Source: Bryopsis sp. KO-2023
Lineage: Eukaryota > Chlorophyta > Ulvophyceae > Bryopsidales > Bryopsidaceae
Assembly (NCBI GenBank): GCA_030272585.1
Contig: BSYQ01000008.1
Span: 4,526,001-4,590,000 of the forward strand
Reading direction: 5' to 3'
Length of the DNA: 64,000 nucleotides
The notes beneath the pieces are model-generated. The model was not told the DNA's origin, made no database searches, and saw nothing but the letters and a program-made list of their open reading frames with translations. Positions 1,300 to 64,000 of the stretch are shown piece after piece; the first letter of the stretch is position 1, and each line of letters starts with the position of its first letter. A program made the position numbers and the translations under genes.

Positions 1300-1592
1300 C
1301 CATAAAACTCTCGACGAGTGATTCCCTTCCGACGGTGACCTCCCCTGGAAGCACCATAAAACCACCTGTCACATCAATCCTTTCCGCCGACCGCTCGTAC
1401 GCTCGTCAAGATGGTCGAAGGCGATTCTTCCAGAAGCGTTCGCTTACCCGATTATAGCGAACACATGAAGTTCCCTTTCCGCCGACGCCAACACGGTCGA
1501 AACACGGTCGAACGCGAGCGTTCTTCCAGAAGCCTTCGCTTACCCGATTACGGCGAACAGATGAAGTTTGAAAACCTTAGTCACGTGTCGTA
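1300..1592 (+). repeat. Two diverged tandem copies of a GC-rich ~80-bp unit
   Basis: The block beginning TTTCCGCCGAC and the run TTCTTCCAGAAG..TTCGCTTACCCGATTA..GCGAACA are each present twice, about 80 bp apart. The open frame across them (1411-1592) repeats the same peptide theme, SSRSVRLPDYSEHMKF then SSRSLRLPDYGEQMKF. It may be a short coding repeat or a GC-rich upstream region; nothing else supports a gene. Confidence 0.45.
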
Positions 1593-1689
1593 ATGCGCAT
1601 GTCTGACGACGTTGAATGATGTGACGGCCGGATTTGACGTCTGCATGGAGTTGGGATTTTTCCATGGGTACTGTGGGTCGTTAAGTGGG

Positions 1690-17909: not shown

Positions 17910-18186
17910 TGCTAGCCGGGGGTGGTGATGGTTTCGGCAGACAAAAAAATCACGATTTGATAACACCACCGGCACTTTATGTAGGGGGAAGACAGGGAGG
18001 ACCAACGATCACGTGATCATGACTCATCTTCGCAAATGTTCGGCTGTGAATTTTTTTGCTTGCTTGACAAAAATTTCATTAGAGCGCGCGTTGAAAATGA
18101 TATCTCAAAGTTCTGGACGGGCAGGAATGGAAGAAAAGGCTGGCAATTAATTTTGCCGTCGAATGCTGAATGCAAAAGCCCGACAC

Positions 18187-20337: not shown

Positions 20338-22490
20338 GAAAGATAAATGATTTGGAAAAATGACGGAGTTTGTTGAGATGTTTCCTTGTGTCGTCCAGAC
20401 AGAATCTCTCATCATCAACCTTATTTCCTTATTTTTTTAATTTTAAAAAGTAGCATATTGTGGGCCTAATTTTAGTTCATTTTCGGATTTTGGGAAAAAA
20501 ATTCAAAGCTAACTGTGACCCTCCTGGTTCAATGACAAGATTATTACTGGTGTTGATGGATGAGAAAATCGATTGAAGACGATAAAACACCCGTAAAAGC
20601 CTCACCCCCCCCCAAAAAAAAAAGAAAAAAAAAGGGGATCCATGTGCCCTGGAATAAAATTTTCCTTGTGTCATTTTTCAGCTGAGATACATTGTCCAAT
20701 GTTTTGCCACAAGAATTATCATTCTGGAAGTGTAACTAAGCTCCAATAACTTGCTCAAAATTCTGAAGGCTTTTGCCTTCATATTTCAATGCAAATTTCG
20801 TTCACAGACGGTTCATCATTGAGGCTGCACTTGATTGCATTATTTTTTGATGGTCAATGATTCTCGATTTGAAAATCTTGATTCCCTCATCCCATGACAA
20901 AAAAATCGCTTGTGCGAGCAGAAATTCTTTACAAAATACCCACAGAGTGACACTCCTCATTATCCCTTGATATCCACCTCCGACTCTCAAAATAGATTTG
21001 CGCCATCCATGTGTCTATGCATGAATCCTCTTACTCATTTTTTAAAACCCTCCCCCCCTCTTTTTTTTTTTTTTGCTTTCTTTTTTTCACCCCCAATTTT
21101 TAACTCAGATTTCCCCCCTTTTTTTTTTTTTTTGCCTTCTTTTTTCACCCCTAATTTTGAACTCAGATTTCCCCCCTCTTTTTTTTTTTTTTTCTATCTT
21201 TTTTCACCCCTCCTTTTTCAAGTCAGATTTGCCCCCAGAATATTCACTTTTTTTTTGTTTAATAAATTTTCCCATACGAATGCTCCCCCCCCTTTTGAAA
21301 CTTGCCCTCCCCTTTTTGGAATAAGGATTCTTTTTAATTTTATGGCTACCCAACCTTTCAAAATTCAATCTCCAGCCTCGACACACTTTCTGATTTTTTT
21401 CCCCCCTGTTTGCTTGTTGCACCATTCCATTTCCATTTGCATTAGGCATCCCATCAGAGTGCTACTGTTTCACACCACCTGATATATCTTTTTTTCTTCT
21501 GATTTTCCCCCACTCTTTTTTTTTAATTTCCTGCCAGTCTTTCTTGATTTCTGCCACTTTTTTTTGATTTTCCTCCACTGTGTTTCGATTTTCCGCCACT
21601 CTCTTTTTTGATTTTCTGTTACTCTTTTTTGATTTTCCTACCACTGCGTTTCGATTTCCGTCACTCTCTGTTTTGATTATCCGCCACTCTTTTTTGATTT
21701 TTCACCCCTCCTTTTGATTTCTTGTTTTACCATTCCTTGATGTTATTATCCACCTTTTTTTTGGTATGTTCGCCAACCATGGATGACTTTTTTTTGTACC
21801 ACCTGCAGCACAATGTTTTGGCCAGAAAATTCCCCACCAGAAATTCTGAACCCAGGCTGCTTGCTCTTCCTCCAGGTACATCTCAGCGTCACTAGAATCA
21901 AGGCTTCGTTCCAAAAGGTGGTTAGCACCTGGTTTTCTGGAGAATTCCTTCACTCTCCTTGACTCCATCCCTCTCTTTGAAGCACACAAAATTGTTCTGT
22001 GTCTTCTTCTTTTGAATCCAAGCCAGTTGCTATCCAGTACCCTCCATTGAGACACCACTGTCCATTCCTAACCGGCACTTTTTTCGGGATTTCTTCTGTG
22101 GGGGTCAAACTCCTGTTTATGATTTCTCGATTGAAACCTGCAAAAAGGAAAAAATGAAAAAAGACAAGACAGTCATATCTTTCCATATGATTTTTCAAAC
22201 CTGGATCAACGGCCCCATGAAGAACAAGCCCCCCCCCTCCCTCTTTTAGCTACATTTGCACAACACAATAGCATCCACTGACTTATGGGGTAATATCAAG
22301 CAAATCTCATTTTTTTTGCCGGGGGAGGGGGCTGGGGAAAGAACGATTTTGGAAAAAATTGAGAATCCATCTCAAGAGGTTGTCTTTTCTCTGATATAAA
22401 ATTTCAGCAGGGAGAAAATTGCAAAGGTTGGGATCGCAAATGTTGCAAAGAAAGGATTCTATATTTCTGTGTGGATGTACTTACGACTCC

Positions 22491-24240
22491 TCAACGCTCC
22501 GGGTGGGTGTTTGATGGTGGCTTCTTTTCTGTTTGGTTGATTTCCTGATTCCTCTGATCCCTCTGGAAATTCTTCAACAAGTTGCTTTCACCGGGGGTTT
22601 TGTTTTGGAGACCCTGGCCCTGGATAACCACAAGAAACCCAACTATTTGTATTGTTGCAATACACAAAGTAACAAAAAAGCAAAGAAAAGCAAATTTTTT
22701 TACCTGCATTTTTCCCCACATGCCGTCAACGATTCGACTGGCCTCGCGCATCCCTTTGGAAAACTGGTTTGGAGGAAAGAGGAAAATACAAAAAAGGTGT
22801 TGATAAGCAAACTGTTGTCATGCAAAAAAAGGATCTTAAAAAGAACCACATGCAGTCCATAAAACAATCCACATCAAGATCAAAAGAAGGGAGAATTTCA
22901 AAAAACCCCTTTCCATCAGAATATACAACAAACAAAAATGGGGCTCAGTCACCCTATGTTGAGCACATGCTCCTTTCAAAGCAAGTCAATTTTGCATACT
23001 ACAGTTTCTCGTTCAACACCAAGGCATGATACAAACAAACAACAAGCGAAATGGAATTCTCGTTTTGGGTGGAAAACTATACGTGGCAAACATACTATCA
23101 TTTCTTGACTGCTGCCGGTATTGCTAGCTGATCCTCGATTTTCCTTTCCCTCTTCATGCACATAATCCGCCATAGGGTCCTCCTGAGGTTTCCAAAAATC
23201 GCTCTCGCTCGACATGACATCATCCGGCACTCGTTGCCCCAGCTCAGAGGTATTTGATTTTGGAATCTAAAAACAGAACACAGAGCTCATTAAGTAGTCA
23301 TCATGCAAGCTTTTTTGTTTTTTTTTTCAAGGCCCACAAGCAGTTCTGGTATTCAACACATTTGTTGTTTTAAAACAAACTCAATCAGCAGTGGCTGATG
23401 GGAGAGAAAAGATACAACACCAGCAGCAAACATAAGGAGCTTTGAAGCTGAAAAAATAATAGTACTTAACAAATTTGTTAAGTACTAATATTCTTTCAAC
23501 TCAGCCTCTTTTCCACATATGTACATATCACTTTTTCCAAGCACCTCATCAGTGGAAAGGGTCCTCCAAGCTGTATCAATTCATATCATTTGCAAATGAT
23601 TTTCTTTTCATTTGTACTTACCACTGGGTGAATATCCAGGCAGGATTCTTGGGGGGGCTGGTCTTCAAGCATTTGGGTTTTCCACTCTTCCTCCAGTTCC
23701 TTTGCCTTTTCTGGGGCCCATTTGAGGATGAAGTCCTCCTCTTGAGCTTCCTGCAAATCTTGGAGCACCTCGAAAGTCTTATAAGACTCCTGGACAAGAT
23801 TCAGCAGTTGCTCCCTTTCCTTCACCACCTCATTGAGTTTTGTAGTCTGGTCCTGTTGCAGCAAAAAATACACAAGGGAAAAAAAAATATAAGACACATT
23901 CATCTTGTCAATCGAACGTAGAAGCGAGGACAAAAAAAATGTCGCAACGGAAAGGGCGTCGCCTTGTTTAACCCAGCCGACCGACCTGCTCTTTATCAGA
24001 CAACTCCTGGACGTCTTTTTCCAGCTTGGTGATCATTCCTGATTTCTCAGCCAACTCCTCTTTCAGCTGGGACCTTTCCTCTTTGATATCGGCCAGTTCG
24101 CTTTCAAGCAAACGAATCCTCTCCTTCCCTTGTTCCACTTCCACCTTTGAAACCATTTGCAAGTCCAAGGGGTCCCTGGCTCCATCGTAAAACTCCCAAA
24201 CAAGTGCACTGAGCGCACTCACTCGTTTGAATAAACCCAT
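22491..24240 (-). CDS. Coiled-coil protein, paralogue A (281 aa)
   Basis: Five exons join exactly: 24240-23986, 23852-23622, 23266-23096, 22763-22704, 22619-22491. All lengths are multiples of three and every junction is in phase 0. The start MGLFKRVSALSALVWEFYDG is shared with paralogues B and C. Heptad-rich coiled coils follow (EQGKERIRLLESELADIKEE, then LKEELAEKSGMITKLEKDV; exon 2 VVKEREQLLNLVQESYK). The tail is acidic and Gln/Asn-rich. No signal peptide or membrane segment is seen. The function is not recognised; the Trp/Phe-containing N-terminal cap plus long coils suggest a structural or scaffold role (inference). Exon 1 looks like a fusion of exon 1 and the end of exon 6 of paralogue C. 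A GTAAGT donor-like sequence lies just past the TGA, so an alternative 3' end is possible. Confidence 0.75.
23461..23486. repeat. Perfect 26-bp palindrome in an intron (unit A)
   Basis: The arm AGTACTTAACAAA is followed immediately by its exact reverse complement. It sits in the intron between exons 2 and 3 of gene A. The same palindrome, unchanged, is in unit B at 30,427-30,452 and is absent from unit C. Confidence 0.85.
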
Positions 24241-26849
24241 CTTAAAACTCTTCTGATAGAGAGTCCGTAAGTTCAAGAGCTCGCCAAAACACCAAGAAAT
24301 TGACTCGCTAAGCGCAAATGCAAACACCAACACGCATAGTCGTTGGAACTCAAAGTCGTCAACGACACACACAGTCGTCGTTGATGGGACGTACAGTCGT
24401 CAACGGCACAGGACCTCCTCCTGGATGTGTTTCGATTTTGGATCAGTCGGATGATCAATCAAAACCAAAACCCAATGTTATCAGTTTAAGTGTTTGTAAA
24501 GTGTGGAGTCTTGTGTAAGGCGATAAGACAAGATACTTCAAATTATGTGTTTGATTGTGTAGGATGGGCGGCTGGATATTTTTTGCAAGCACCTACAAGT
24601 GTGTGTTTGAGTGTGTGTGGGAGAAATAGAAATTTTTGTGGAATGTTGCAACCTGCCACAAGTGTGGAGCATCTTTCAGCAAACAAGTTCCCCCCAAATC
24701 ATGTCCCAACAGTTTAGGGGGGTTGGAACCCCTTTTACAGCCAAAACTTATTTTTTTTTATGCGACCCACACATGGCTTTTTTTCATCCTAACTCACACT
24801 GACTCAGAAAAGCACAGTCACATCAACAATCATACACGAATTATAGATTTCCAAAGTTTCTTTTTCCTCCCTTCCCCTCTTCTTCATTAACTGTTGAACG
24901 CATTTTTTGTGGATCAATTTTCCATGCTTTTATCAGCACAAAGAGGAACTAGGTGAAATTCTGATGTAAGAAGAAGAAAACCATCCACAAACCACTGGAT
25001 CAAGCTCTTTTTGAAAAGAGAGCATACATTTACCCCCCAAAAAAAAACAAAAAGATTTGAAGTACTGATGCAGAAAAGGAAATTTGGGAGCCTTGGAGCC
25101 TGATGAGCAAGAAAATTGCATTTATCAAAACCCCTTTACAACCAACAGTCGACATCCCATGGGATGAATTACAGTGCTCTATTTTCAACATCTTCTGAGA
25201 TTTTTGAGGGACAGCTGGAACAGAAAACTGCATGTTCTTTTGAATTGCATCCCTGGCAGTGCTGGTGGCTACACCGCGGTCAGTCGCTCCACAGCAGCTC
25301 CAACACCCCTGTTTTCCTGTTTGGTATTCAGCTGAGCATCCCACAAGCAAGATCAACTTCTGTTGTCGGCTTTTAACCCCCCAGATAGGGAGGCCAACAT
25401 TAAGAGCCCTAATTTCCAGCCACATTTCTTTCCCAGCATCGCCCAGAGTTTTCCCACCTTTCCCAGCCTGTAAGCCTTGCAATTATCTCGCAATTATAAC
25501 AGCATAGACTTATCCGGCGTTCATCTCTCAGTACTTTTACCACCCTTAGCGAGCCCAGGGACGGTGATTCTCACAAAAACAAAGCCCAAATATATACTGT
25601 GCCACCACAAAACAGAGAACATACCTTCCTTCTTGTCATATCAGAATATGTCCTATTCCTGGCTAGTGCTACTCTCTAGATCCAACGGGCGCAGATCACG
25701 CGGTTGTGCCCCCCCTTCGCTGGCGTCCCTTTCTTTGTGTTTTGTTTCTTTTTTTGATCAGTTGATTTGATAGTGTGGGGTGTTGCATCGGATCGCTTTT
25801 ATTAAAATTGTCACTGATATTGACAGGGTGATCTGTGGGTGATTGGGGTTTTCCATCTTTGCGTTTGTGGGATTTTGTGCCAAAAGCCAACGTTTTGGGG
25901 GGAAAGAGCTCCAGGGTATCTTTTTCGTGAAGTATCTTTTTTCTTTTTTGGGAAGGGGGGATTTTCAGCAAGAACAGGGTAGAGCATAAAACTGATTTTG
26001 CATTTGTGTTTGAATCGCTGATTTCATCTTTGAAAAACTGAAAAAAAAATGACACAGATCGTATAATTTTATGACGAAGGGAAGCAGGATATTGGATTTG
26101 CTGCCTCCTTTTTTTGGGTCCCAAAATCCACATGCCGATATTAATTTTTAAACTGGTTGTCTGTATGATTTTGGATTTTTTTTTCTTATAAATTTCGAGA
26201 AAAGAGAAGTTTGGGGATGTGGCATGGTTTTCTTGACAGCTTCTAGATGTTTGTGCTGCATCTGTTCAGAAATAATCAATTGGGCACTTCTGCTTTCATA
26301 TATGTTTTAACTCATGGTGTAAAAAAGATTCAAAAACCTGTTTTGAGGATTTTTAATTTGCGGCAACTTCGTCTCTTGCAAAAGAACTGGTGTGGGGGTT
26401 GAAAATCCCTGGCTGGATTTTCTGAAGCAGATTCTCAGCTCTAGACTCAAAACCACAGTTGATGTGACTTTGCATAGATTCTTGATATTTCAGATCTAAA
26501 AATATCAAGGGTGACTGCAAAGCATTCAACAGTTTCGTCTTTTGTGTATTCGGTATGTCATACTAAAATTAAAATGAATATTTGTCAATAACATTTTCCA
26601 TTTTGGTTGGCTTGTTTCCTCAACCCTGTCTCATTCCATAGCTGGAATCAACTTGATCAAATATAAAGTAGAATTTTTTCGTTTCCTCACCCTATTGCAC
26701 TCCAAGCCAGTCAAAAATTAGTGGGGTTCATTCATTCCCTTTTGTGCAAAATAGATATAAACATGTAGCAAAAAAGTTTCTTGGACTGATTCATCCTTTC
26801 GAGTTTGGCTGGAGTTTTCCAGAACCAAAAATTGATCCATGCATGCTCT

Positions 26850-27457
26850 TGAGATAATATTTGTTTAATATTTCAACTGGCCTTCATTGTCATCACCAAT
26901 TAGTTTTAGGGTCTGTTTCTTATTAGGGTTTGTTTCTTAATTGTCCAGCACCAACTCGAAATTTTCCCCGATTCCAACCATGGCAAGTCTCCATGACATA
27001 TTTTTTCACCTCTTTCATGTTGCATTTCCTTCAGTGAAAGGAAAATTTCATTTTCCAAGGGCACCAGCTGCCTTGTGAATATCTAGGGGTGTTCTTTTCT
27101 GATGGAAGGTTGAGGAGGAGGGGGAATTCATCAACACCACCATTCGGGTCGCTGGAAACAAGGACGGTTTTTTCGGAAACAAGGAACGCCCATATCTCAA
27201 GAGATTCGAAGGGGGTTAGTCCGCTATTTGTCGTGAGGACCGACTTGGGCTCAGTATATGAAGGTGTTTCAGGTGCACAATGCTTTTTACTCATAGATAA
27301 AGATTTACAATAACACTGAGAATGTTATTTTGGTTTCCAAGTCTACGTCTTGCTCGAGACAACCAACCAACTACCACAGTTACATTAAAAAACACAAAGA
27401 GGCCATCATATCATTAGTTGTTCTTTTCATCAGAGCCATTGCTACTTCCCACGACGG
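26850..27457. other. Unique spacer between duplication units A and B
   Basis: About 600 bp without a counterpart elsewhere in the window. Both strands are open at 27,031-27,313 (for example, minus-strand TNSGLTPFESLEIWAFL). This could be an orphan exon, but neither strand gives a clear start or a paired splice site. Confidence 0.35.
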
Positions 27458-29584
27458 AAAGATAAATGATTTGGAAACATGACGGAGTATGTTGAAATGT
27501 TTCCTTGTGTTGTCCAGACAGAATCTCTGATCATCAACCATATCTCCTTAATTTCCTTATTTTTTTAAATTTTATATAGTAGCATTTTGTGGGCCTAATT
27601 TTTACTTCATTTTCGGATTTTGGGAAAGAATTTCAAAGCTAACATTGATCCTCCTGGTTCAAGGACACTACTACTGGTGCTAATGAATGAGAAAATTGAT
27701 TGAAGACAATAAAACACCCCTAAAAGCCGCCCCCCCCCTCCCCCCCCCCCCAAAAAAAAAGAAAAAAGAAAAAAGGGGGATCCTGAAAGAAATTTTCCTT
27801 GTGTCGAGATGAGATACATTGTCCAATGTTTTGCCACAAGGATTATCATTCTGGAAGTGTAACTAAGCTCCAATAACTTGCTCAAAACTCCGAAGGCTTT
27901 TGCCCTCATATTTCAATGCAAATTTAGTTCACAGACGGTTCATTGAGGCTGTACTTGATTGCATTATGTTTTGATGGTCAATGATTCTCGATCTGAAAAT
28001 CTTGATTCCCTCATCCCATGAAAAAAAGTCCGCTTGTGCGAGCAGAAATTCCTTACAAAAAACCCACAGAGTGACACTCCTCATTATCCCTCTATACCCA
28101 CCCACCTCCGACTCTCAAAATAGATTTGCGCCATCCACATGTCTGTGCATGAATTCTTTTACTCATTTTTCAAACCCTCCCCCCCTCTTTTTTTTTTTTT
28201 TTGCTTTCTTTTTTCACCCCTCATTTTTTCAGGTAAGATTTACCCCCTCTTTTTTTTTCTGCTTTCTTTTTCCTACCCCTCAATTTTCAAGTCAGATTTG
28301 CCCCCAGAATATTTAGTTTTTTTTAGAATAAATGTTCCCATAGGAATGCTCCCCCCCCTTCGAAACTTGCCCTCCCCTTTTTGGAATAAGGATTTAAAAA
28401 AAAAAAGGTGCCACTCTCCATCCAGCAGAGTTCAGTATTGAATCTCCAGCCTTGACATAGTTCCTGGTTTTTTCCATGTTTGCTTGCTGCACCACTTCAT
28501 TTCCATACTCTTGCTGATCCATCCCATCAGAGTGCTACTGCTTCACACCACCTGATATATCTTTTTTTCTTTTGATTTTCCCCCACTCTTTTTTTATTAT
28601 TATTTCCCGCCAGCCTTTCTTGATTTTCCTACCACTGTGTTTCAATTATCCTCTACTCTTTTTTTTAATTTCCCGCCACTCTTTTTTGATTCGCCTAACA
28701 CTGTGTTCCGATTTTCCGCCACTCTTTTTTGATTTTCCGCCACTCTTTTTTGATTTTCCACCCCTCCTTTTGATTTCTTGTTTCATGATTCCTTGATGTT
28801 TTTATCCACCTTTTCTTTGTATGTTCGCCAACCATTTGATTCAGTTTTCATGGATGACTTTTTTTTTGTACCACCTGCAGCACAATGTTTTGGCCAGAAA
28901 ATTCCCCACCAGAAATTTTGAACCCAGGCTGCTTGCTTTTTCCTCCAGGTCCACCTCAGCATCACTGGAATCAAGGCTTCGTTCCAAAGGGTGGTTAGCA
29001 CCTGTCTGGAAAACTCCTCCACTCTCTTTGACTCCATCCCTCTCTTTGATGCACAAAAAATTGTTCTGTTCAATGGGCTGCACCATGTCTTCCTCCATTA
29101 CACCCAGCCAAGCCAGTTGCTATCCAATACCCTCCATTGAGACACCACTGTCCAATCCAAACTGGCACTTTGTTGGGTTTCTTGTGTACGGATCACACAA
29201 ACTTCTGCTTATGGTTTCTTGATTGACCCTTGGAAAAAAAATACGAAAAAAGACAACACAATCATATCTTTCCATATCATTTTTCAAACCTGGATCAATG
29301 CACCCATAATAACCACCCTCCCCCCTCTTCTAGCTTCATTTTCACAACACAATAACATTCACTGACTTATGGGATATAATATCCACCAAATACTTTTTCT
29401 TTTTTTTCGGGGGGGAGGGGGGGGGCAGGGGAAGAATGATTCTGGAAAATAATGGGAATCCATCTCAAATGGTTTGTTTCCTCTCTGATATAAAATTTCA
29501 GGAGGGAGAAAATTACAAAGGTTGGGATCACAAATGTTGCAAAGAAAGGATTCTATATTTCTGTTTGGCTGTACTTACGACTCC

Positions 29585-31218
29585 TCAACGCTCCGGGTGG
29601 GTGTTTGATGGTGGCTTCTTTTCTGTTTGGTTGGTTTCCTGATTCCTCTGATCCCTCTGGAAATTCTTCAACAAGTTGCTTTCGCCGGGGGTTTTGTTTT
29701 GGAGACCCTGGCCCTGGATAACCACAAGAAACCCAACTATTTGTATTGTTGCAATACACACAGTAACAAAAAAGCAAAGAAAAGCAAATTTTTTTACCTG
29801 CATTTTTCCCCACATGCCGTCAACGATTCGACTCGCCTCGCGCATCCCTTTGGAAAACTGGTTTGGAGGAAAGAGGAAAATACAAAAAAGGTGTTGATAA
29901 GCAAACTGTTATCATGCAAAAAAAGGATCTTAAAAAGAACCACATGCAGTCCATACAACAATCCACATCAAGATCAAAAGAAGGGAGAATTTCAAAAAAA
30001 CCCTTTCCATCAGAATACGTAACCAACAAAAATGGGGCTCAGTCACCCTTTGTTGAGCACATGCTCCTTTCAAAGCAAGTCAATTTTGCATCCTACAGTT
30101 TCTCGTTCAACACCCAGGCATGATACAAACAAACAACAAGCGAAATGGAATTCTCGTTTTGGGTGGAAAACTATACGTGGAAAACTATACGTGGCAAACA
30201 TACTATCATTTCTTGGCTGCTGCCGGTATTGCTGGCTGATCCTCGATTTTCCTTTCCCTCTTCATGCACATAATCCGCCATAGGGTCCTCCTGAGGTTTC
30301 CAAAAATTGCTCGCGCTCGACATGACATCATCCGGCACTGGTTGCCCCAGCTCAGAGGTATTTGGTTTTGGAATCTAAAAACAGAACACAGAGCTCATTA
30401 AGTAGTCATCATGCTGAAAAAATAATAGTACTTAACAAATTTGTTAAGTACTAATATTCTTTCAACTCAGCCTCTTTTCCACATATGTACATATCACTTT
30501 TTCCAAGCACCTCATCAGTGGAAAGGGTCCTCCAAGCTGTATCAATTCATATCATTTGCAAATGATTTTCTTTTCATTTGTACTTACCACTGGGTCAATA
30601 TCCAGGCAGGATTCTTGGGGGGGCTGGTCTTCAAGCATTTGGGTTTTCCACTCTTCCTCCAGTTCCTTTGCCTTTTCTGGGGCCCATTTGAGGATGAAGT
30701 CCTCCTCTTGAGCTTCCTGCAAATCTTGGAACACCTCAAAAGTCTTATAGGACTCTTGGACTAGATCCAGCAGTTGCTCCTTTTCCTTCACCACCTCATT
30801 GAGTTTTGTAGTCTGGTCCTGTTGCAGCAAAAAACACACATGGAAAAAAAAATAAGACACATTCATCTTCAAGATAAGTTAAGTTATCAATCGAACGTAG
30901 AAGCGAGGCCAAAAAAAAATCACAACGGAAAGGGCATCGCCTTGTTTAACCCAGCCGACCGACCTGCTCTTTTTCAGACAACTCCCGGACGTCTTTCTCC
31001 AGCTTGCTGACCATTCTTGATTTCTCAGCCAACTCCTCTTTCAGCTGGGACCTTTCCTCTTTGACATCGGCAAGCTCGCTTTCAAGCAAGCGAATCCTCT
31101 CCTTCCCTTGTTCCACTTCCACCATTGAAACCATTTGCAAGTCCAAGGGGTCCCTGGCTCCGTCGTAAAACTCCCAAACGAGAGCACTCAAGGCACTTAC
31201 TCTTGCGAATAGACCCAT
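29585..31218 (-). CDS. Coiled-coil protein, paralogue B (281 aa)
   Basis: Exons 31218-30964, 30818-30588, 30374-30204, 29857-29798 and 29713-29585 have the same five lengths as gene A (255, 231, 171, 60 and 129 nt), with all phases 0 and the same stop. It begins MGLFARVSALSALVWEFYDG. Exon 2 differs from A at few positions (for example VKEKEQLLDLVQESYKTFEV). Preservation of both frames and all splice sites in two copies argues that both are, or recently were, functional. Expression cannot be judged. Confidence 0.75.
30427..30452. repeat. Perfect 26-bp palindrome in an intron (unit B)
   Basis: Identical to 23,461-23,486 and in the homologous intron of gene B. Confidence 0.85.
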
Positions 31219-34020
31219 CTTAATACTCTTTTGGTAGAAAGTCAGCAACTCAAGCGCTCGCCAAAACACAAAAGAGATAGACTCGGTAAGCGCAAATGCA
31301 AACGCCAACACGCACAGTCGTTGGAGCTCAAAGTCGTCAACTACACACACAGTTGTCGTTGATGGGACGTACAGTCGTCAACGGCACAGATGTGTTTCGA
31401 TTTTGGATCAGTCGGATGATCAATCAAAACCAAAACCCAGTGTTATCAGTGTAAGTGTTTGTGGAGTCTTGTGTGAGGCGATAAGACAAGATACTTCAAA
31501 TTATGTGTTTGATTGTGTAGGGTGGGTGGAGATTTTCTGTAGGCACCTACAAGTGTGAGTTTGATTGTGTGTGGGAGAAATAGAAATTTCTGAATAGTGA
31601 ATGTTGCAACATGCCACAAGTGTGGAGCATCTTCTTGCAAACAACTTCCCCCCTAGTCATGTTTCAACAGTTTAGGGGGGTTTGAACCCCTTTTACAGCC
31701 AAAAGTTCATTATTTTTTTATCCTCAAACACCTCGATGAAAATGACCCACACATGGCTTTTTTTCATCCTAACTCACAGTGACCCAAAAAAGCACAGTCA
31801 CATCGACAATCATACATGAATTCCAGATTTCCAAAGTTTTTTCTTCATCCGTTCCCCCCTTCTTCATTAACTGTTGAACGCATTTTGTGTGAATCAATTT
31901 TCCATGCTTCTATCAGAATAAAGTGGAATTAGGTGAAATTCTGATGTAAGAAGAAGAAAACCATCCACAAACCACTGGATCAAGCTCTTTTTGAAAAGAG
32001 AGCATGCATTTCCCCCCAAAAAAAAAAAAAGATTTGAAGTACTGAGGCAGAAAAGGAAATTTAAGAGCCATGGAGCCTGAATAATATAAATTGCATTTAT
32101 CAAAACCCCTTTACAACCAACAGTCGACATCCCATGGGATGAATTACAGTGCTCTGTTTTCAACATCTTCTGAGATTTCTCAGGGACAGCTGGAACAGAA
32201 AACTGCAGGTTCTTTTGTGAAAAGCCATTGACTAAGGGTCAGTCGAGGAGCAAACAGCCGAAGTTTTGTGCCACTTGGTTTGCATGAATTGCTCACAGCT
32301 CCGCGATATCCTGCGACATCAACTCTTAATGTGGGTTAAGCTCTAGAGATTCAGTCCATTCCTGCATTGAACAGACTTGCAAGGGTGCCCGATTCTTGAA
32401 TTGCATCCGTGGCAGTGCTGGTGGATACACCGCGGTCAGTCGTTCCTCAGCAGCTCCAATGCCCCTGTTTTCCTGTTTGGTATTCAGCTGAGCATCCCAC
32501 AAGCAAGATCAACTTCTATTGTCCCTGCTTTTAACCCCCCAGATAGGGAGGCCAACATTGAGAGCCATAATTTCCAGCCACATTTCTTCCCCAGCACCGC
32601 CCACAGTTTTCCCACCTTTCCCAGGCTGTAAGCCTCGCAATTATAACAGCATAGACTTCTCTGGCGTTCATCTCTCAGTACTTTTATCACTATTAGCGAG
32701 CCCAGGGACGGTGGTTCTCACAAAAACAAAGCCCAAATATATACTGTGCCACCACAAAATAGAGAACATACCTTCCTTCTTGTCATAACAGAATATGTCC
32801 TATTCCTGGCTAGTGCTACTCTCTGGATCCAACGGGCGCAGATCACGCGGTTGCGCCCCCCCTTCGCTGGCGTACCTTTCTTTCTTTGTGTTTTGTATTT
32901 TTCTTAGGCAAGAGTATTGTTTTGATCAGCTGAATTGATAGTGTGGGGTGTTACATCGGATCGCACCCACCAAAATTCTCAGTGATATTGACAGGGTGAT
33001 CTGTGGGCCAAAAGCCAACGTTTTTGGGACGGGGGAAAGAGCTCCGGGGTATCTTTTTCGTAAAGCCTCTTTTTTCTTTTTTTAGAAGGGGGGATTTTCA
33101 GCAAGAACAGGGAGGAGCATAAAATTGATTTTGCATTTGTGTTTGAATCGCTGATTTCATCTTTGAAAAAATAAAAAAAATGACACAGAGACGTAGTAAG
33201 GGAAAAGGAAAAGAAACCAAAGATCGCGTGATTTTATCACGAAGGGAAGCAGGATACTGGATTGGTTGCCTCCTTTTTTGTTGTCTCAAAATCCACATGC
33301 CGATATTAATTTTTAAACTGGTTGTCTGTATGATTTTGGATTTTTTTTTTCTTATAAACTTCGAGAAAAGAGAAGTTTGGGGAGGTGGCATGGTTTTCTT
33401 GACAGCTTCTAGATGTTTGTCCTGCATCTGTTCAGAAATACTCAATTGGGCACTTCTGCTTTCATATATGTTTTAACTCATGGTGTAAAAAAGATTCAAA
33501 AACCTGTTTTGAGGATTCTTAATTTGCGGCAACTTCGTCTCCTGCAAAAGAACTGGTGTGGGGGTTGAAAATCCCTGGCTGGATTTTCTGAAGCAGATTC
33601 TCAGCTGCAGACTCAAAACCACGGTTGATGTGCAGTGGAATTTGCATAGATTCTTGAGATTTCAGATCTAAAAATATAAGGGTGACTGCAAAGCATTCAA
33701 CAATTTCGTCTTTTGTGTATTCGGTATATCATACTAAAATTAAAATGACTATTTTGTCAGCATTGGGTAAAATTTTCCATTTTGGTTGGCTTTTTTCCTC
33801 AACCCTGTCTCATTCCATAGCTGGAATCAACTTGATCTAATATAAAGTAGAAGTTTTTCGTTTCCTCACCCTATTGCACTTCAAGCCAGTCAAAAATTAG
33901 TGGGGTTCATTCCCTTTTGTGAAAATATATATATATACATGCAGCAAAAACGTTTCTTGGACTAATTCATCTTTTGGAGTTTGGCTGGAGTTTTCCAGAA
34001 CCAAAAATTGATCCATGCAT

Positions 34021-35705: not shown

Positions 35706-38700
35706 TCACTTGTCTTTGATTGGGCCATCACAGTGGATTTGCTTGCAAGCTTCATGATATGCAATCCAGCCCAGCGCATGATTAAAAGCTTTATGTTCAA
35801 ACAACCTCTGGCCAAAGACCTGGACCTCGTAGTCGTTGACCCTGTCTGAGAAGTTTTCAATCCACCTGCTGTGATATTTCTGGAGGTTCTGCATCCCCCA
35901 AAAAACCACACACACACAAAGAAGAATTACATCAACAAAAAAAATGCAGCCAAATTTCTGTAGTGAAAAAATACTCACTAATTGTCCAGTTCCCAAACTG
36001 TTTGAACACTAAAGGTTCTCTCGTTTATAGCTCAGCCAGTTTTCTACATGCCACTTTTATTCTCCAGAAACAAGTATTGCATCAACCCCCCCCCCCCCTC
36101 CCAAAAAAAAAAGAACCCTGATCAGGGAACCCTCATGAGCTTTTATTTACCAAACAGGTGAATGTTGAGTTTGCATCTCCCTCTTTCTAAGCACACTACC
36201 AGTGGGAAGGGTCCTCCAAGCTGTATGAAATAATTTTTCCTTTCATTTGTACTTACCACTGGCTGACTATCCATTTTTGGGGGCTGGTCTGCAGAACTTT
36301 TGTTTTTGTCTACTTGCATTTCCTTGGACTGTTCCCATTTGAGAATTAACTCCTTTCCTCGAGCTTCCATAATATTTTTGAACTCCTCCTCCATGGACTC
36401 ATTGGTTTTTTTCATCTGATCCAGCTCCTTCTCTTCAGTTTCCAGCAGTTGCTCCCTTTCCTTGACCATCTCTTTCAGCTCTTCAGTTTGGGATTCAAAA
36501 TCCTGATACAAAGAAACAATGGGTGAAAACACCCCCAAAAAGAAAAAAACAAGCATCAAGACACATCCATGCTTGTCAGTTGAACATAGAAGCGGGGACA
36601 AAAACAATGTCACCAAGGAAATTGCCTTGTTTATGTATCCAACAACCGACCTGCTGCTTGTCGGACAACTCCTTGATGTTTCGCTCCAGAATGCTGATCA
36701 TTCCAGAATTTCCTTCATTCACATGGGCTGCACCATCCTCCATGACATGATCAAAAGTTGGATCCACATCCTTGAGATCGTCAAGATTCACCTGGAATCC
36801 AAGAAATCGAAATTAAATGATGAGTCATACCAAGAGAGAGAAAAACCCCCCCTCCAGAAACGGCACCATTCCAATTTAGCAACACAGAGCTTGAAGGGAA
36901 AACAGGTTTAATTTTTTCTACATGGAGGGTAATTCAGGTTTCTATCATGTGGAAACCAGATCCTTCATTCATAGATACTGACCTTTGGCATTTCAATGAA
37001 GAAAATTGGAATCCCCTGAGTGACAGAAGAATCGCAGTTCACAACAAGGTTCATTTTTTTCATTGCCTCTTCAACAGAGACCTCGACAGCCAACATCTTG
37101 GCCTCCAAATCAGTGTTGCTGGGCAGTGAAAATTCAGCCCATTCCTTTGCAATTCCTTCAAGCTTTTGCAGCTCTGCTTGATGCTCCTCCTTCCTACTCA
37201 CCAATAAAAGTGCAGGCGATAGATCATTCAGCCAAAATATGACTATTGTACAGAAAGAAGCTGCTGGATTTCTGAGAGCTGAATGGCTTGATCAAGCTCA
37301 ATTGAGCCAGGTATTGACGTACACAAAACCAGCTGGAAAAAAACCTCGAATTTGGTAGGGCAAAGATCATAATCTTCGCCAACAACAATTCATAATCATT
37401 TTTTTGAGATAACACGACACAGTGGATTTTTTTTTGAATGTGTATATATTGGGTGATTATTGGTGGTGCATTATCAGAAATGATGATCCATTCTTCGGTG
37501 GAAAAGCAACAGGCATCAAAAAAACAGACACACACATATAATTAACAAATGGGGATGTTCAGCCCAGACTTGAGGCTCAGCCAAGATGAAAATATGATCA
37601 GTTCAAGCTTGAAAAAGAGGGATTGCACAAGATTGGTTAGAGTTCAAGTATGGATACCTCTCAGTAGCATCCTTTTTGATTTTTTCTGACTCGTCTTGCA
37701 GTTTTTGGATCTCCTCCTGGAGCATGGTACCGTTGAGGACATCTGACCACCTTTTTTCAAGTCCTTTCCAATATCCAGGCTTTTGCTCCACATCGGGAAC
37801 CTCATCAACAATTTCAGAGGTCTGTCCAGCAGCCTTTGGCACCCCAAGTTCGTTCTGGAGCATCAGAGCAAAACATTCTGATCAGTCCAGGTGACCATGA
37901 CTGACTGGATTGTTTTCTTGTTCTATTTCTCTCTTTCAGAGGCACAGGGAAAAACCACATAGGCCCAGCTTGATTTCAAACTGGGTGACTCCTATTTTTT
38001 CATTCAATTTTAGGATGTGGATGAGATTAAGGGCTCCATCTGTTGGATTACTGAGTGCATGATCAGGATCACCTTTCTTGTGGTTATTTGATCCACTTAT
38101 ATCGATAGTTGACAGATTATTGATTCAAAAATGCAACCACATCAAATTAAGAATGTACTCTTCACACATACACACAAAAGAATCGAAGCATAGATGCTTC
38201 AAAAGCTTACCATCAGATTGTCGATTCGGGCTTCCAATTTCTCGGCTGATTGTGCAGCCAACTCCACCTTCATTACCTCCATTTCAACTTTTTCAGCCTC
38301 GAGATTGGACCTTTCCTCTTCAAGCTGATCCTTTTGAGCCAAGAGCTGCAGAAAAAAAAAAACAAAAAAACACTGGGTCAGCAGAGTTGCAACCCCATGA
38401 ATTAATTTATTGATTGCATTCACTCAATCCCCACTCGAGCTGTCTCGGCACCGTTACCTGGTCGGCCTTCTCCACAAGGCTCAGCGCTTTCCGGTTCAAA
38501 CTTTCCTTCAGCGCGGCCATCTGATCCTTCAACGCTCGGTTGGCCTCTTTGATTCCGGCGCCTGGTATGGATCACGCAAAAAAAAAGTAAAAACGATGGA
38601 AAAGGAAAGGAAAAGTCGACTTTGGTGGCACGGAGCAGTTTCTGTCCCGACCACAGTTCAGGCTGAGCACTCACTATCGATCCTCTCGCGCTCCAGCTCC

Positions 38701-38885
38701 AACTCCAGAACACCTATTCTCTCCTCCTTGATCTCCGCAAGCTCCCCCTCCAAAAGACGGATCCTTTCCCTGGCTTGCTCCACTTCTGCCGTCGAAACCA
38801 TCTGCAGATCGAGCAGGTCGTTCGATCCGTTGTAGGCGTCCCACACAAGACCGCCCAGGGCGTTAACCCTTGTCAGGAAACCCAT
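35706..38885 (-). CDS. Coiled-coil protein, paralogue C (long form, 475 aa)
   Basis: Eight exons agree in phase: 38885-38675, 38561-38458, 38345-38211, 37854-37658, 37193-36983, 36791-36651, 36502-36257, 35888-35706. It begins MGFLTRVNALGGLVWDAYNG, like A and B. Coils follow: EQARERIRLLEGELAEIKEE, NRALKDQMAALKESLN, DQLEEERSNLEAEKVEMEV, then EELKEMVKEREQLLETEEKE. The last exon ends CKQIHCDGPIKDK before TGA. Exon 7 (EELKEM..ILKWEQSKEM..DQPP..QPV) is homologous to exon 2 of A and B; exons 2-5 are absent from them. A GTGAGT donor overlaps the stop, and a Trp-rich open block at 35,340-35,508 (NDWGTQECNWSWTDPW) with its own splice sites lies downstream. That block is out of phase with this donor, so the 3' end may differ. 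Function is unknown. Confidence 0.75.
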
Positions 38886-39520
38886 CTTGCAGACTCCCCA
38901 AGAAATATTCACTCCAAACGCAAACGAAAACGCAAACGCAAACGCACACTCGTCGATGGAAAACAAAGCGCAGAGGACCTCGTCGTCGAAATGCGGCGAT
39001 TTTGTACAGGTATCGATTTTTGGAAAATTAATCAATCAATCGAAAACTACAGGCGGTTTTCAGCGATCAATCCCGTTAAGGTCTTTGGTGGCGCCAAGAA
39101 GCCCAGACAGAAATTTCCTCCCCCAAAAAGCAGTGTTGGGTTGTGGCTAATGAAGTTTTTTTAATAAGAATCAGTAGCACAGAGAACTCACAGTTTCAAC
39201 TCCCAATAGAAAAAGAATCCCCCTTCCCCCAAGCCAATCGACCACATCCATTTGGAATTGAGGAAAATGGCAAGACCTTCTCACCTTCTTCTTTGGCCAT
39301 TTTTAAAGAATGTTTTTCTTTTTTCCTCGAAGGAGAAAAAACATTTTTCCTTTTTTAGGTTTGAAACAGCTAGCCTGTTTCTGGGAATATCTACATATCT
39401 ATAAATGCATCAGCCATCTTATCTCAACTGTTACAAAACCAGCATCCCCACAAAACCTTCTTCAGACTCTTTCAACAAAAACAGACAAACAGAAAAACAA
39501 GGCCCCTCTGCAGACAAAAC
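38881..39520 (+). repeat. Inverted repeat arm 1 (5' region of gene C)
   Basis: The first codons of gene C, its (CAAACG)n-rich leader and upstream DNA to about 39,520 reappear inverted at 59,427-60,070. The leader hexamer run lies at 38,918-38,946 and is shared by both arms. Confidence 0.85.
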
Positions 39521-39803
39521 AGACCATCACGAGCAAAACCTAAACAGAGAAAAAAAAAGTTAACAATAACAACGAAGTCTTCTTCCCCCCTCTCCATTTT
39601 TCATGGTTCTGACTTCGCTTTTAACGACCCTGCACTTTCTTACAGTGCAAATCCAATCAGACTTCAAAATTCCATTTCCATCACAACACCGCCCACAGAA
39701 AACACTTCCAAATTTATTGGCATAATTTCTTCCCCCCCCCCCCCCCTCTCTTAAATTATCATTTATTTTTCTTTGGAGAAACTAGATCTCTCTGATCTAA
39801 CTT
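39521..39803. other. Short AT-rich spacer
   Basis: Contains a C-run at 39,732-39,748 and the 3' flank of the PAN-like gene. No gene is seen. Confidence 0.5.
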
Positions 39804-59426: not shown

Positions 59427-60070
59427 GTTTTGTCTTGTAGAGGGGCCTTGTTTTTTTGTTTGTCTGTTTTTGTTGAAAGAGTCTGAAGAAGGTTTTGTGG
59501 GGATGCTGGTTTTGTAACAGTTGAGATAAGATGGTTGATGCATTTATAGATATGTAGATACTCCCAGAAAGAGGCTCCTAATTCGAACCTGCAAGCGGAA
59601 AAATGTTTTTTCTCCTTCGAGGAAAAAAGAAAAACATTCTTAAAAAATGGCAAAAGAAGAAGGTGAGAAGGTCTTGCCATTTTCCTCAATTCCAAATGGA
59701 TGTGGTCGATTGGCTTTGGGGAAGGGGGATTCTTTTCTTTTGGGAGTTGAAACTGTGAGTTCTCTGTGCTACTGATTCTTATAAAAAAAAATCATTAGCC
59801 AGAACCCAACACTGCTTTTTGGGGAAGGAAATTTTGTCTGGGCTTCTTGCCCTTAGCGAGATTGATCGCTGAAAACCAATTTGTAATTTTCGATTAATTG
59901 ATTAATTTTCCAAAAATCGATACCTTTGTACAAAATCGCCGCATTTCGCCGACGAGGTCCTGTGCGCTTTGTTTTCCATCGACGAGTGTGCGTTTGCGTT
60001 TGCGTTTTCGTTTGCGTTTGGAGAGAATATTTCTTGGGAGTCTGCAAGATGGGTTTCCTGACGAGGGTTA
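59427..60070 (+). pseudogene. 5' fragment of a fourth coiled-coil paralogue, disrupted (inverted repeat arm 2)
   Basis: Inverted copy of 38,881-39,520: same upstream sequence, same TTTGCG-type hexamer leader, and an exon 1 start at 60,049 reading MGFLTRV. After GTTA the match to paralogue C ends abruptly and CACTATGGG begins. The fragment is on the plus strand, so its remaining exons would lie beyond the inserted element, outside the window. Confidence 0.8.
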
Positions 60071-60175
60071 CACTATGGGAAAACCCGCTCTGTGCGGGGT
60101 TGGTCGAATCTCCGCCAAATATCGAAGAACGTCGAACTGACGAACTAAGACCCGAAACAGAACAGAAACGTATTA

Positions 60176-60216
60176 GGAACGGTCGGATGTACCTGGGTTC
60201 GACTCCCAGGCGTTCC
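60176..60216 (+). other. tRNA-minihelix-like hairpin, copy 2
   Basis: GGAACG, linker, CCTGGG, TTCGACT, CCCAGG, CGTTCC: an acceptor stem stacked on a T arm with an exact B box, as at 1918-1958. The stems are conserved between copies and the linker differs. Confidence 0.5.
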
Positions 60217-60449
60217 AATCCCCTTAAAACTGGGATCGCGAAAAAGTCGTCAGCGACTGGAATTCGCGACCCCGCACAGATGACTGTGCGGGGCTATAAA
60301 TACCGCACAGGAGATCAACGCCGCACAGAGCCCTGTGCGGTGTGACCATAAAACGAGGCAATTTTCTTAAAACAAAAACACACACACATTTGCCCACAGT
60401 CCCCGAATCCCAAGCAACCCATCTGTTCATCCAAACCCACAAGGTTTAA

Positions 60450-61093
60450 TAGCCCAAACACCATCCACACAATGTACCCCGCACAGAAGTCCACAACCCC
60501 CGCCCACACAGCCACATGCCCCGCACAAACACCGCGAAGAAAAAGAAGGAAGATCTTCTTACTCTTTCACTTGCTCTTTCGAGCAGTTTTCGGGGTTTTG
60601 GGTGAAATTCATTCAAAAAAACACACACACAGTTGTGCCCACAGTCTCCGAATCCCAAGCAACTCATCCGTTCATCGAAACCCGCAAGGTTTAATAACCC
60701 ACAATATCATCAGAAAAACTATGAGAGCACGCACGTTAGTCGGAATCAAAAAAGGCCGCAGAGGGCTGTGTGCGGCGTTCCGACTCCGCACGATACGCAT
60801 TCATAACAATACCAAACAAGAAAACCCAGTCCCCGAAGCTCAAAAAAACCTTGACGTTCATCCAAATCGATCAACTTCGGCTAATCTTGACATGTCGAAC
60901 CAAAAAGCCACACAAAAAAGAACAGGAAAACAACCACCACCGCACAGAAATCTCAACAGCCACGCACAAAAACCCATACACCCCGCACAGACCTATTTTT
61001 TCGGAACGAGCGACGTTTTGGGGACGGCGAACGTTCCTCCTCGGCCACAAAACAACAGCCCCGCACACAGGCGCGTAAACCCCGCACCGCCGT
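60450..61093. other. Motif-rich 3' flank of gene H
   Basis: Contains many CCCGCACA/CCGCACA cores, two copies of a CCGAATCCCAAGCAAC block, and (CA)n runs. The plus strand is open (60,472-61,191) only because the motif happens to lack stop codons. No gene is supported on that strand. Confidence 0.5.
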
Positions 61094-63817
61094 TTACTTC
61101 TTGCGCGACGACCTGCGTTTTTTTGGTGAATCCTCCTTCGCCTTCTTGGACCTCCGCGTTTTCTCGGCCTTTTCCAGAGCCTTCTGCCTGATGGACTTCT
61201 TCCCACTATCGTACAACCGATCCCTGTCCCTCTTTTTTTTGGGCGGTTCATCCTCCCCCGCACTTGACTCGTAGTCGGGCTCGGCATCGTCGCCAATGTC
61301 CTGTGCGGGGTCCATGGGATCCTGTGCGGGGCTGTCGTGATCGTCACCAGCGCCGCACTCTGTGACCGCATCCTCGAGATCTGGTGCTGGAAGACCGTGA
61401 AGCGCTGCCTCCGCGCTCTCGGAGAAAGGGCCGCCGGAGGTACCGGAGGCACCGGAGGGACCACCGGTGTCATGACTTCCGGATACCTCTCCTAAGCCGC
61501 ACACACTAGTTTTAGCCCCGCACACACACATAGAAACCCCGCACACCAGAACATCAACAAAATGGTTACAAACACTGACTTTTTTGAACCACGCACAGAA
61601 GTCCTCCGACCCCGCACGAAACAGGAAAAAACATGTGTCGACAACCAATCAATCCCTCACCTGGATCCAGTGGAGGCGGCTGCAGTACACGGGGAATGGT
61701 GGGCTCCCTTGGCTGCTTCCCACGGGCGATCTCCTCCGGGGTCTCCTCCTCGGGTGGTGGCTGACGCACCTGCGTGCACACGAGAAATCAGTTAGCGCAC
61801 GAAGTATCATTAACCCCGCACAGAAGACCTTCAACCCCGCACAGAGACCGAAACAGCAACACCTAACCAAACACGCACAGACACAATCGAGGCCCGCACA
61901 GACAAGTTCATAAGAGGCACGCACAGAAACAACCCACCCCCGCACAGAGACATTTGAGACACGCACATCAAGTTCTGCACTCACCACGGAATCATGGAGC
62001 AGCGTCCCCGTCTCCGCGAACCTCCGCTTCATCGCCTTCACCTCGTCCACCCACGCTACCTCGGTCGTGTACCACTCGTCGTTCGGGACGAGGGTGGCGC
62101 GCAGGTGGACGGTGTCCTGTATTTTCTCGGTGCGGGTGGCGTTTTCAGTCTCGAGGGCGTCGATTCGCTTTTTATGCTGCTTGATGTTGCGCCTGCTATC
62201 CTGCACCCTACAGCCCCGCACACACCGGGGTTAGAACCGCACACACACACACGAACCCCGCACACACACAACACCCCGCACACAGATAAAACCCCCACAG
62301 CCCCGCACAAACGCGTATACACCCCGCACAGAACAGGAAAAGGGCGCTTACCTGTCGACCACTCGTTGGCAGAGCGTGCGGTACCCGATGACGAATCCCA
62401 TGCGGCCCCCAACCACGCCTTCTTGATTCTGGGCGTGGAAGAGGATTCTGAAGATCGCCGCCCCCATCATATCAATAAGGCGCGGGCGAGTGGTTGGCGA
62501 GACCACATTTCCTCCGACCTGCCCACCACGCACACACAATGATTAACCCCGCACACACTAACATTACCCCCTCCCCAACACCCAAACACCGCACACACAC
62601 ACAACAACCCCCCGCACACACACAACAGAACCCCGCACACACGTACTGCAACCCCGCACAGCTTATAGTTCTCTGTTTTTTACTCACCGTTATCCCGTCA
62701 GGCATATTTTGCCTTGACGCGAGCATCCTCATCGGGTTGCGGAGCGTCGGAACGATTTCCTGAGCCCAGTATTGGTTGATCAGCTGTTATACAAACACAC
62801 ATGAGGAAAAAAGTTAATTAACCAACCAGTACCCCCGCACGAAGGTCGTGGAGCCCCGCACAGACGTTACTTAGCAAAACATTTGAGGAAGGGGTGCATA
62901 TAATTTTGTGCACCGCACCTGACCTTGAGGACCCCGCACAGGACTTGCCTTACCTTGTTTAGCCACCCAAACTCTTTTTCGTTCTTGTAGCGGCGCCTGG
63001 TTTTCCCGTCCTTCACCACCTTCACTATGAGCCTCGTGTCGAGTCTGCCCGTGATGCTCTCTGCCTGGGTACTCTTGATAGATGGCAAACGAGCAGGCGT
63101 GGGAGTCGCCATAGCGACGAGCATCTCCTTCGCCGCCTCGACGACAGCCTGTACACCGCACAAAGGCGTTACCACCCCGCACCACAATGTTTCAACCACG
63201 CACAGAGACACAAAAAACATAAAACACGCAACACCGCACAGAAGCACAACAGCACCGCAGATGAGAACATCCACCCCGCACACTCACCATATCGATGGGC
63301 TCTACCACTGCATAGCCAATGGATTCCACCACGTGCAGGTAGCTCTCCATATTTTGGATGGTGGAAACGAGGGCTTCGTCGATGACATTGAATATGGGCT
63401 TGTTTATCGTCTTCGTCGACCAGAAGTGTATTTTTCTGCCTGTGAAAGTCTGAAAAAAAAGACAACATAGAATTTAGAGACAACCCCGCACACGGTCCCT
63501 GTGGCCCCGCACAAATCGAGAAGGAATTCCTCATACCCCCGCACAACAATCCGTGAAGCCCGCACGGAGATATGGACACCCCGCACAAAAACCCTGTACC
63601 CCGCACAGCGTAAAACGTTTACCACACAGATCACAAGTTGTTAAACCGAGCCGCCTTTGCGAATAACAGTCGTCTTCGTGGAACCAGATTTTTTCCTCAC
63701 CGCAATAAGAGCCGACGCCGTAAAAGGCCTCAGTTCGCCGTACTCCTCGAGGATCTCGCGCTCCCTGCCCTCGTTGTCGCCAGTCATTTTGTTAAGCACT
63801 TCCTCAAGTGCTCCGAT
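61094..63817 (-). CDS. Gene H: nuclear-type protein with motif-filled introns (>=488 aa, 5' end off the window)
   Basis: Eight exons join in phase: 63817-63701, 63449-63288, 63148-62954, 62783-62688, 62518-62352, 62207-61985, 61769-61661, 61491-61094. Another exon may lie near 63,900-63,960. The central part has RLDTRLIVKVVKDGKTRRRY, LINQYWAQEIVPTLRN and MMGAAIFRILFHAQNQEGVV. A short coil follows (IKQHKKRIDALETENATRTE), then a Pro/Glu linker. A Gly/Ser/Asp region leads to a very basic tail (EPPKKKRDRDRLYDSGKKS; AEKTRRSKKAKEDSPKKRRS) typical of nuclear proteins. No transposase DDE/D motif or known domain is recognised. The coding part is GC-richer than the other genes here. It could be a protein carried by the CACTA-like element, including a DNA-binding accessory protein of the TNPA kind, or a host gene. 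Confidence 0.6.
61491..63640. repeat. ~21-bp-period degenerate array, core CCCCGCACA (sense strand TGTGCGGGG), filling gene-H introns
   Basis: In the intron between 61,769 and 61,985 core starts are at about 61814, 61835, 61871, 61892, 61917, 61937 and 61959. Between 62,518 and 62,688 they are at 62525, 62547, 62587, 62610, 62631 and 62652. Between 63,449 and 63,701 they are at 63484, 63505, 63537, 63557, 63579 and 63599. Steps are 20-25 bp, or about twice that where one copy has decayed. The core is well kept while the 10-13 bp between cores varies freely, unlike an ordinary minisatellite. The same strand orientation is kept in all introns examined. Confidence 0.85.
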
Positions 63818-64000
63818 CTCGTTAAGGGTAAGCACAAGAAAGAAAACAATCATTTTTGCAAAACGATAGAAAGGTAGACCGCACACACCGAGTTCACCAG
63901 GGTTCTCGAGCTCGATTGCCCCGCATGAAGCGCCAGGGGTGGGTTACATTATTTATAAACTAATTAGTGTGACTTGCGTAATGTGGACTGCTTTAGTTTC
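63818..64000. other. Right edge, probable further exon of gene H
   Basis: On the minus strand, TPGASCGAIELENP is open at about 63,900-63,945 before a GTGAAC donor-like site. It may be the next upstream exon of gene H. The window ends before this can be tested. Confidence 0.3.

Follow-up and report, generated by a model that had tools for sequence, protein, structure and literature searches.

A sub-terminal repeat phased at 21 bp in the introns of a CACTA-type transposon of the green alga Bryopsis

Gene H, located in a 64,000-nt stretch of DNA from the green alga Bryopsis sp. KO-2023 (the window), carries arrays of a nine-base word with a main step of 21 bp in its introns. The sequence-only reading that drew attention to these introns had treated H as an ordinary gene. 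It is a transposon gene and not a host gene, contained in a CACTA-type element that uses the same word as the sub-terminal repeat of both ends, in both orientations, and also carries it in introns and coding exons. The explanation favoured here builds on the element, its copies, the word, its spacing, the selection acting on it and its persistence in diverged relatives. With moderate confidence, the word is proposed to be the element's own DNA recognition site, whose arrays would be bound by an element-encoded protein, with an anti-silencing or regulatory role in the interior.

Gene H (61,094-63,787, minus strand) was modelled from the sequence, giving eight exons and 478 aa, and homologous exons occur elsewhere in the genome; further exons may lie upstream of the model start at 63,787. 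Exons 1 to 4 are located at 63,701-63,787, 63,288-63,449, 62,954-63,148 and 62,688-62,783, and exons 5 to 8 at 62,352-62,518, 61,985-62,207, 61,661-61,769 and 61,094-61,491. All seven introns of the spliced model are GT-AG and all seven contain cores of the motif, where at least four had been claimed. The word reads TGTGCGGGG in the sense of the H transcript and CCCCGCACA on the other strand. Its GTGCG core is found six times in intron 1 (63,450-63,700; steps of 20, 21, 21, 32 and 21 bp), five times in intron 2 (63,149-63,287; 42, 36, 21 and 21 bp), four times in intron 3 (62,784-62,953; 21, 57 and 21 bp), six times in intron 4 (62,519-62,687; 21, 21, 23, 40 and 21 bp), six times in intron 5 (62,208-62,351; 21, 27, 18, 21 and 21 bp), eight times in intron 6 (61,770-61,984; 21, 21, 25, 21, 36, 21 and 21 bp) and five times in intron 7 (61,492-61,660; 21, 52, 21 and 21 bp). 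By eye, a weak copy rich in C is plausible near 62,567. At 14 places, the genome is at least 83% identical to one H exon (residues 235-313). The H protein has a basic C-terminus, no match in Pfam at E values up to 1 and no recognised DNA-binding domain. A comparison with PDB sequences gave two weak matches only (E 0.065 and 0.068), both to a receptor, which were taken as chance.

In the H introns (1,257 bp in total), all 40 cores read GTGCG in the sense of the transcript and CGCAC is absent, as the claim of a single orientation had it; the full TGTGCGGGG accounts for 22 of the 40. The exons (1,437 bp) contain three GTGCG and four CGCAC. Among the 33 consecutive intronic core steps, 21 measure exactly 21 bp, and the next peak in the distances between all pairs of cores is at 42 bp (8 pairs). 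When an equal number of cores was placed at random, 20,000 trials yielded 0.90 such steps on average and never more than 7; 1,000 dinucleotide shuffles yielded 0.02 on average and never more than 1. The periodicity reported by the sequence-only reading is thus real and exceeds shuffled sequence, but its loose range of 20-25 bp narrows to a main step of 21 bp.

Within the window, CCCCGCACA occurs exactly 35 times, compared to an expectation of 0.25 in 64,000 nt, and all except four of these (1,792-2,043) fall within 60,091-63,607. In the suggested scan of the 91-Mb genome, the 9-mer is present 3,270 times, versus 314 times for the word read backwards. It is clustered, with 504 pairs at 17-25 bp, 252 of them at exactly 21 bp, and the reversed word forms no pair at 17-25 bp anywhere in the genome. 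In 264 kb of examined DNA, mostly selected for motif clusters, 403 exact motifs were located, of which 388 lie between paired termini. The remainder come from two loci with one terminus each in view, 11 motifs next to the one at C2:426,323 and four in a deleted copy (window 1-2,063). No exact motif was found away from an element in these 264 kb. This speaks against a host protein, either a repressor or a chromatin organiser, as the binder of the arrays. Any cooperative binder could serve, and the 21-bp step demands no more than that; however, an element gains no reason to retain sites for a host repressor, and a host binder is regarded as very improbable.

Two further arrays in the window (21,500-21,720 and 28,602-28,777), with a CCGCCACTC core, were considered as a sign of a general 21-bp rule and rejected, as they are situated in the two halves of one duplication outside the element. 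This direct duplication of ~7.1 kb (20,338-26,844 and 27,457-34,020, 85-90% identity) carries one CCGCCACTC array with a 21-bp step per half. Elsewhere in the window, a 433-aa open frame at 17,985-19,283 (plus strand) shows a sub-threshold match to the reverse-transcriptase zinc-binding family PF13966 (E 0.014) and is perhaps a LINE remnant.

Selection on the word was measured in the four copies that were available at length, aligned over gene H, namely C8 (the focal copy), C2a, C2b and C2c, of which C2a is the most diverged. Between C8 and C2a, 11 of 232 intronic motif sites have changed (4.7%), compared to 242 of 894 spacer sites (27.1%; p = 6e-16) and 188 of 1,420 exon sites (13.2%). The six outermost bases on both sides of an intron were scored separately, as splice sites (11/84 changed in C2a). 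These rates leave gapped sites aside; with gapped sites counted, p for C2a is 1.4e-15. The outcome is the same when words are defined in C2a and scored in C8 (8/228 versus 245/898 in spacers, p = 3e-18). C2b differs from C8 at 2 of 238 motif sites and 108 of 920 spacer sites, and C2c at 3 of 238 and 45 of 934. The word contains a CpG, which would normally be expected to speed up its change where CpG is methylated. The intronic words are more conserved than the adjoining coding sequence.

These figures bear out the view that the core is under selection and is not a product of slippage, and defining the words in other copies leads to the same conclusion. A neutral minisatellite spread by slippage would find some support in the one tandem duplication that is visible, in intron 1 of C2a. 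As a full explanation it is refuted by the difference between spacers (27.1%) and words (4.7%), and by steps of 21-22 bp that are retained in a distant relative on C10. Because words change less than spacers and exons, and because this diverged relative keeps the word at 21-22 bp, word and spacing are judged from the alignments to be under purifying selection.

Relatives of H outside the main family were found at C10:1.02M (exons 32-50% identical) and C2:1.748M (44-53%). From the two together, 980 bases selected for intron content were analysed, and the C2 locus was already known to contain one word pair when it was selected. The C10 relative has 12 GTGCG cores in 560 bp, all in transcript sense, and no CGCAC. 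Its two introns, which flank the same exon as focal H introns 4 and 5, show steps of 21, 65, 22 and 21 bp and of 21, 21, 22, 22, 22 and 21 bp. Alignment of the C10 spacers to C8 exceeds base-shuffled controls by 2.3 and 3.0 sd; the spacers are therefore not wholly unrelated, and slight homology or a common composition persists. The C2:1.748M relative carries four cores with one exact pair at 21 bp and is probably a decayed copy, since its exon has an in-frame stop. In the C10 family, transposase exons are 57-75% identical and H exons 32-50%, which means that H diverges faster. More distant transposase families, named C, D and E, are 37-59% identical by exon, and for their copies on C2 to C4 the pairs listed include no exact 21-bp pair at a distance of 10 kb or less. 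Family C loci (C2:583k-596k, C2:982k-996k, C2:6.49M and C4:2.72-2.74M) have weak H matches (43%, E ~1e-6), and this family may use another word.

The element that contains gene H was delimited by its termini, homologous copies and an empty site. It occupies 60,071-64,000 of the window (plus strand) and continues to C8:4,599,666 (L031:9,666, where L031 position x equals C8 4,590,000 + x), with a total length of 13,596 bp. The left terminal inverted repeat CACTATGGGAA is located at 60,071-60,081 (plus strand), and the right terminus of the focal copy, TTCCCATAGTG, at L031:9,656-9,666. Genome-wide, CACTATGGGAAAACCC has 44+37 occurrences, and the termini of relatives are either the same as in the focal copy or of the CACTATAGGAA type. 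The host DNA flanking the element has an empty-site relative within the window (36,985-39,521, minus strand), in which GGGTTAACGCCC is uninterrupted at ~38,864; it matches the left flank of the occupied site at 91.8% over 662 bp and the right flank at 84.8% over 1,911 bp. Comparison with the empty site places the left copy of the target-site duplication TTA at 60,068-60,070 (plus strand) and the right copy at L031:9,668-9,670, after one extra A beyond the right terminus. Because the empty site reads through, the focal duplication can be read as TTA, with a single additional A at the right end of the element, and the insert as 13,596 bp. The 3-bp flanks are identical at eight of ten paired element ends, a count that excludes five further ends without a partner in the examined DNA and includes a GGG within a G run and a TTT within a short T run. 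The two pairs that do not match are C2:1,630,547-1,633,820 and the focal copy, the latter explained by the extra A.

From the left, the element consists of the terminus, sub-terminal DNA, H (minus strand), a transposase-like gene (plus strand), an SNF2/helicase piece, a dense array and the right terminus. The left sub-terminal region (60,071-61,093), downstream of H, has 12 CGCAC and four GTGCG in 1.0 kb, some of these cores forming inverted pairs (e.g., 60,270/60,285). In the right sub-terminal array of ~1.1 kb, 35 CGCAC and nine GTGCG are present; 10 of 34 CGCAC steps measure 21 bp and eight measure 13 bp. As this array mixes both steps, only the introns follow the 21-bp rule strictly. An exact motif pair, 21 bp apart, also lies in the coding last exon of H (61,302-61,331, minus strand), where it encodes PAQDPMDPAQ in an orientation opposite to that of the intronic cores; four other copies have the pair with a near-identical spacer (C2:167,392, C2:212,910, C2:241,211 and C2:7,663,016). 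The array had been described as a feature of introns, and it does fill every intron of H, but it is not confined to them, as the element ends and two coding exons carry it as well.

The occurrence of one word inside the element and at its ends would also be expected if the internal copies were ordinary CACTA sub-terminal repeats, needed for excision and insertion only, duplicated inward and without a function of their own in the interior. Short, internally deleted derivatives that retain the ends agree with this, and so do the TNPA repeats of En/Spm, which are outlined as cis-determinants of transposition (PMC2613891). Passive copies should, however, decay like spacers, yet the internal words change about six times less, and they persist in relatives whose H exons are about half identical or less. 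Repeats without an internal role are thus considered rather unlikely, and a recognition site that also acts in the interior is preferred.

Several features of the element and its kin were recorded alongside. Part of a second, internally deleted copy lies at window 1-2,063 (minus strand) in the opposite orientation; it extends beyond the left edge of the window, and of its termini only the left one, at 2,063, is in view. The stretch 1,694-2,063 is 96% identical to 60,071-60,440. The captured piece of a host SNF2/helicase gene (L031:6,100-8,000; C8:4,596,100-4,598,000) matches PF00176 (E 1.7e-5, just under the cut-off) and PF00271 (E 3e-10), and is internally duplicated (L031:6,517-6,669 and 6,861-7,015). 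A 4-kb element at L044:1,613-5,603 (C1:1,256,613-1,260,603) has a CAC target duplication and the motif at both ends, more densely at the right. It shares no aligned stretch of at least 150 bp with the focal element and is likely a non-autonomous carrier. A tRNA-like "top half" was noticed in the left sub-terminal region (60,177-60,217) and at L044 ~1,720-1,765, seen by eye as a T-arm with GGTTCGACTCC enclosed by an acceptor-like stem. ARAGORN identified no tRNA gene in the window, and Rfam no family at gathering score.

Divergent from H, a plus-strand gene extends from L031:48 onward and probably encodes the transposase. At 16 places, the genome is at least 94% identical over residues 183-307 of the transposase query. 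The protein has an N-terminal Cys/His cluster with a weak zinc-ribbon match (E 0.0035, below the cut-off) and no match in Pfam, Transposase_21 included. In this genome, Transposase_21 (PF02992) matches only on C12, and a 54-aa stretch of the putative transposase aligns weakly (E 0.27) inside that match. By eye, the protein may resemble Tnp2. Since Pfam does not recognise it, the element is classed as CACTA-type on structure, with a putative enzyme domain. Introns 2 and 3 of the ten modelled for this gene contain four and six cores, introns 1 and 9 one each, and the other six none; the motif also occurs within coding exon 2. The same exon contains a long run of glutamate codons (an acidic tract, L031 ~513-655), and tRNA-like pieces were noticed by eye in the third intron (L031:1,099-2,043).

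The orientation of the word follows transcription, with ratios of 40:0 in H introns, 16:0 in relatives and 10:2 in transposase introns. This counts against reading the word as a DNA site, because a DNA site needs no fixed orientation, and it is the main support for a role in RNA, in which the words would be G-rich intronic signals for splicing or transcription in the pre-mRNAs of both divergent genes. The structural form of this idea, proposed for the GGGG runs, did not hold up: fold z-scores range from -0.69 to 1.84 across the seven introns (100 base-shuffles), with no excess of folding, and GGGG runs with a spacing of 17 nt are poorly suited to forming quadruplexes. A signal read directly from the RNA sequence could still act, since orientation does follow transcription. 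It would have to accommodate both orientations of the word at both ends, the opposite sense in coding exons and at most one core in eight of ten modelled transposase introns, and we are aware of nothing in RNA that would call for steps of exactly 21 nt. Overall, a function in RNA is unlikely. As the motif occurs in both orientations at the ends and in the opposite sense in coding exons, action on DNA is favoured. The intronic bias could stem from avoidance of CCCCGCACAG in transcripts, where its AG would be a false 3' splice site.

Under the favoured explanation, in which the word is the element's own recognition site, the sub-terminal repeat would have been retained and multiplied into all seven H introns and into introns 2 and 3 of the transposase gene. 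Two helical turns of DNA measure 21 bp, and neighbouring proteins would therefore sit on one face of the DNA. Such a one-faced array had been suggested before and fits the step, whereas the binding itself is something that we infer, along with the action on DNA instead of RNA, the identity of the binder and the anti-silencing. Cooperative binding could be performed by H, a candidate on account of its basic tail, or by the transposase, whose N-terminus carries a Cys/His cluster. Binding of the arrays at the ends would serve transposition; in the interior, it would keep silencing at bay or control the divergent promoter, by analogy with TNPA of Spm and VANC of VANDAL. The genome has matches to DNA methylase and Piwi families, so silencing machinery to escape may exist. 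The host is photosynthetic, with 107 matches to the light-harvesting family.

A broader proposal is put forward tentatively, at less than even odds in our estimation. An algal CACTA lineage may have evolved self-recognition independently of plant VANC, with an element protein that coats helically phased 21-bp arrays in introns, exons and ends and thereby keeps the element open or marks it as self. Families would share one unchanged word even where their H proteins are no more than about half identical, while families that have diverged further seem to lack it and may use other words. Introns are usually regarded as free sequence, and here they seem to be scaffolds of binding sites for a mobile element, which would account for words that are more conserved than neighbouring exons. 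If the arrays do recruit an element protein, self-recognition of the VANC or TNPA type would have more than one origin, one of them in a distant alga. The two-turn spacing offers a direct structural hypothesis, and the many copies, together with diverged relatives with and apparently without the word, make co-evolution of word and protein testable in one genome. Among the papers listed by searches of open-licence PMC text, no title or abstract opening describes motif arrays in CACTA introns.

Among known systems, the CACTA elements (En/Spm or EnSpm, such as Spm/En of maize and Tgmt* of soybean) are the closest in structure. CACTA termini and a 3-bp target duplication are shared (PMC2613891), and the ends, target duplications and sub-terminal repeats agree with the outlines given in PMC2613891 and PMC8978399. 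Elements with TNPA repeats further share direct and inverted sub-terminal repeats and a second, fast-evolving protein, and TNPA-like proteins are summarised as diverging faster than the transposase (PMC2613891). Deletion derivatives and captured pieces of host genes are likewise common to both. In contrast to these elements, the word in Bryopsis also fills the introns of the element's genes and enters coding exons, 21 bp being its main step. The second gene differs too, standing apart and being transcribed divergently instead of arising as a splice form, and the Pfam family Transposase_21 misses the transposase. For En/Spm, an element protein is outlined as a binder of the ends that also affects promoter methylation (PMC2613891, PMC1636069, PMC10398659), and TnpA as activating Spm with demethylation (PMC10398659).

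Fungal DNA transposons with TET/JBP dioxygenases share the principle of a transposon carrying a gene suited to countering DNA methylation (PMC12730594). H differs in having no dioxygenase domain (no Pfam match), and the opening of that abstract mentions no motif arrays.

In its use of a motif, the element resembles VANDAL21 of Arabidopsis, for which VANC21 is summarised as binding a motif of nine bases that lies in introns, between genes and in terminal regions (PMC5735166). Shared are such a motif in the intronic, intergenic and terminal non-coding DNA of one family, its tandem multiplication (PMC5735166, PMC10398659) and a fast-evolving extra protein encoded by the element. The word itself differs, and H has neither of the VANC domains DUF1985 and DUF287 (Pfam gives no match up to E = 1). 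VANDAL elements have Mutator-like termini and a longer target duplication, whereas CACTA ends and 3-bp duplications are found here. The selection on words versus spacers and the 21-bp step were measured in Bryopsis, while anti-silencing is proposed by analogy. The Bryopsis element would thus follow the CACTA plan in a modified form and act in the manner of the VANC system, to which it does not belong.
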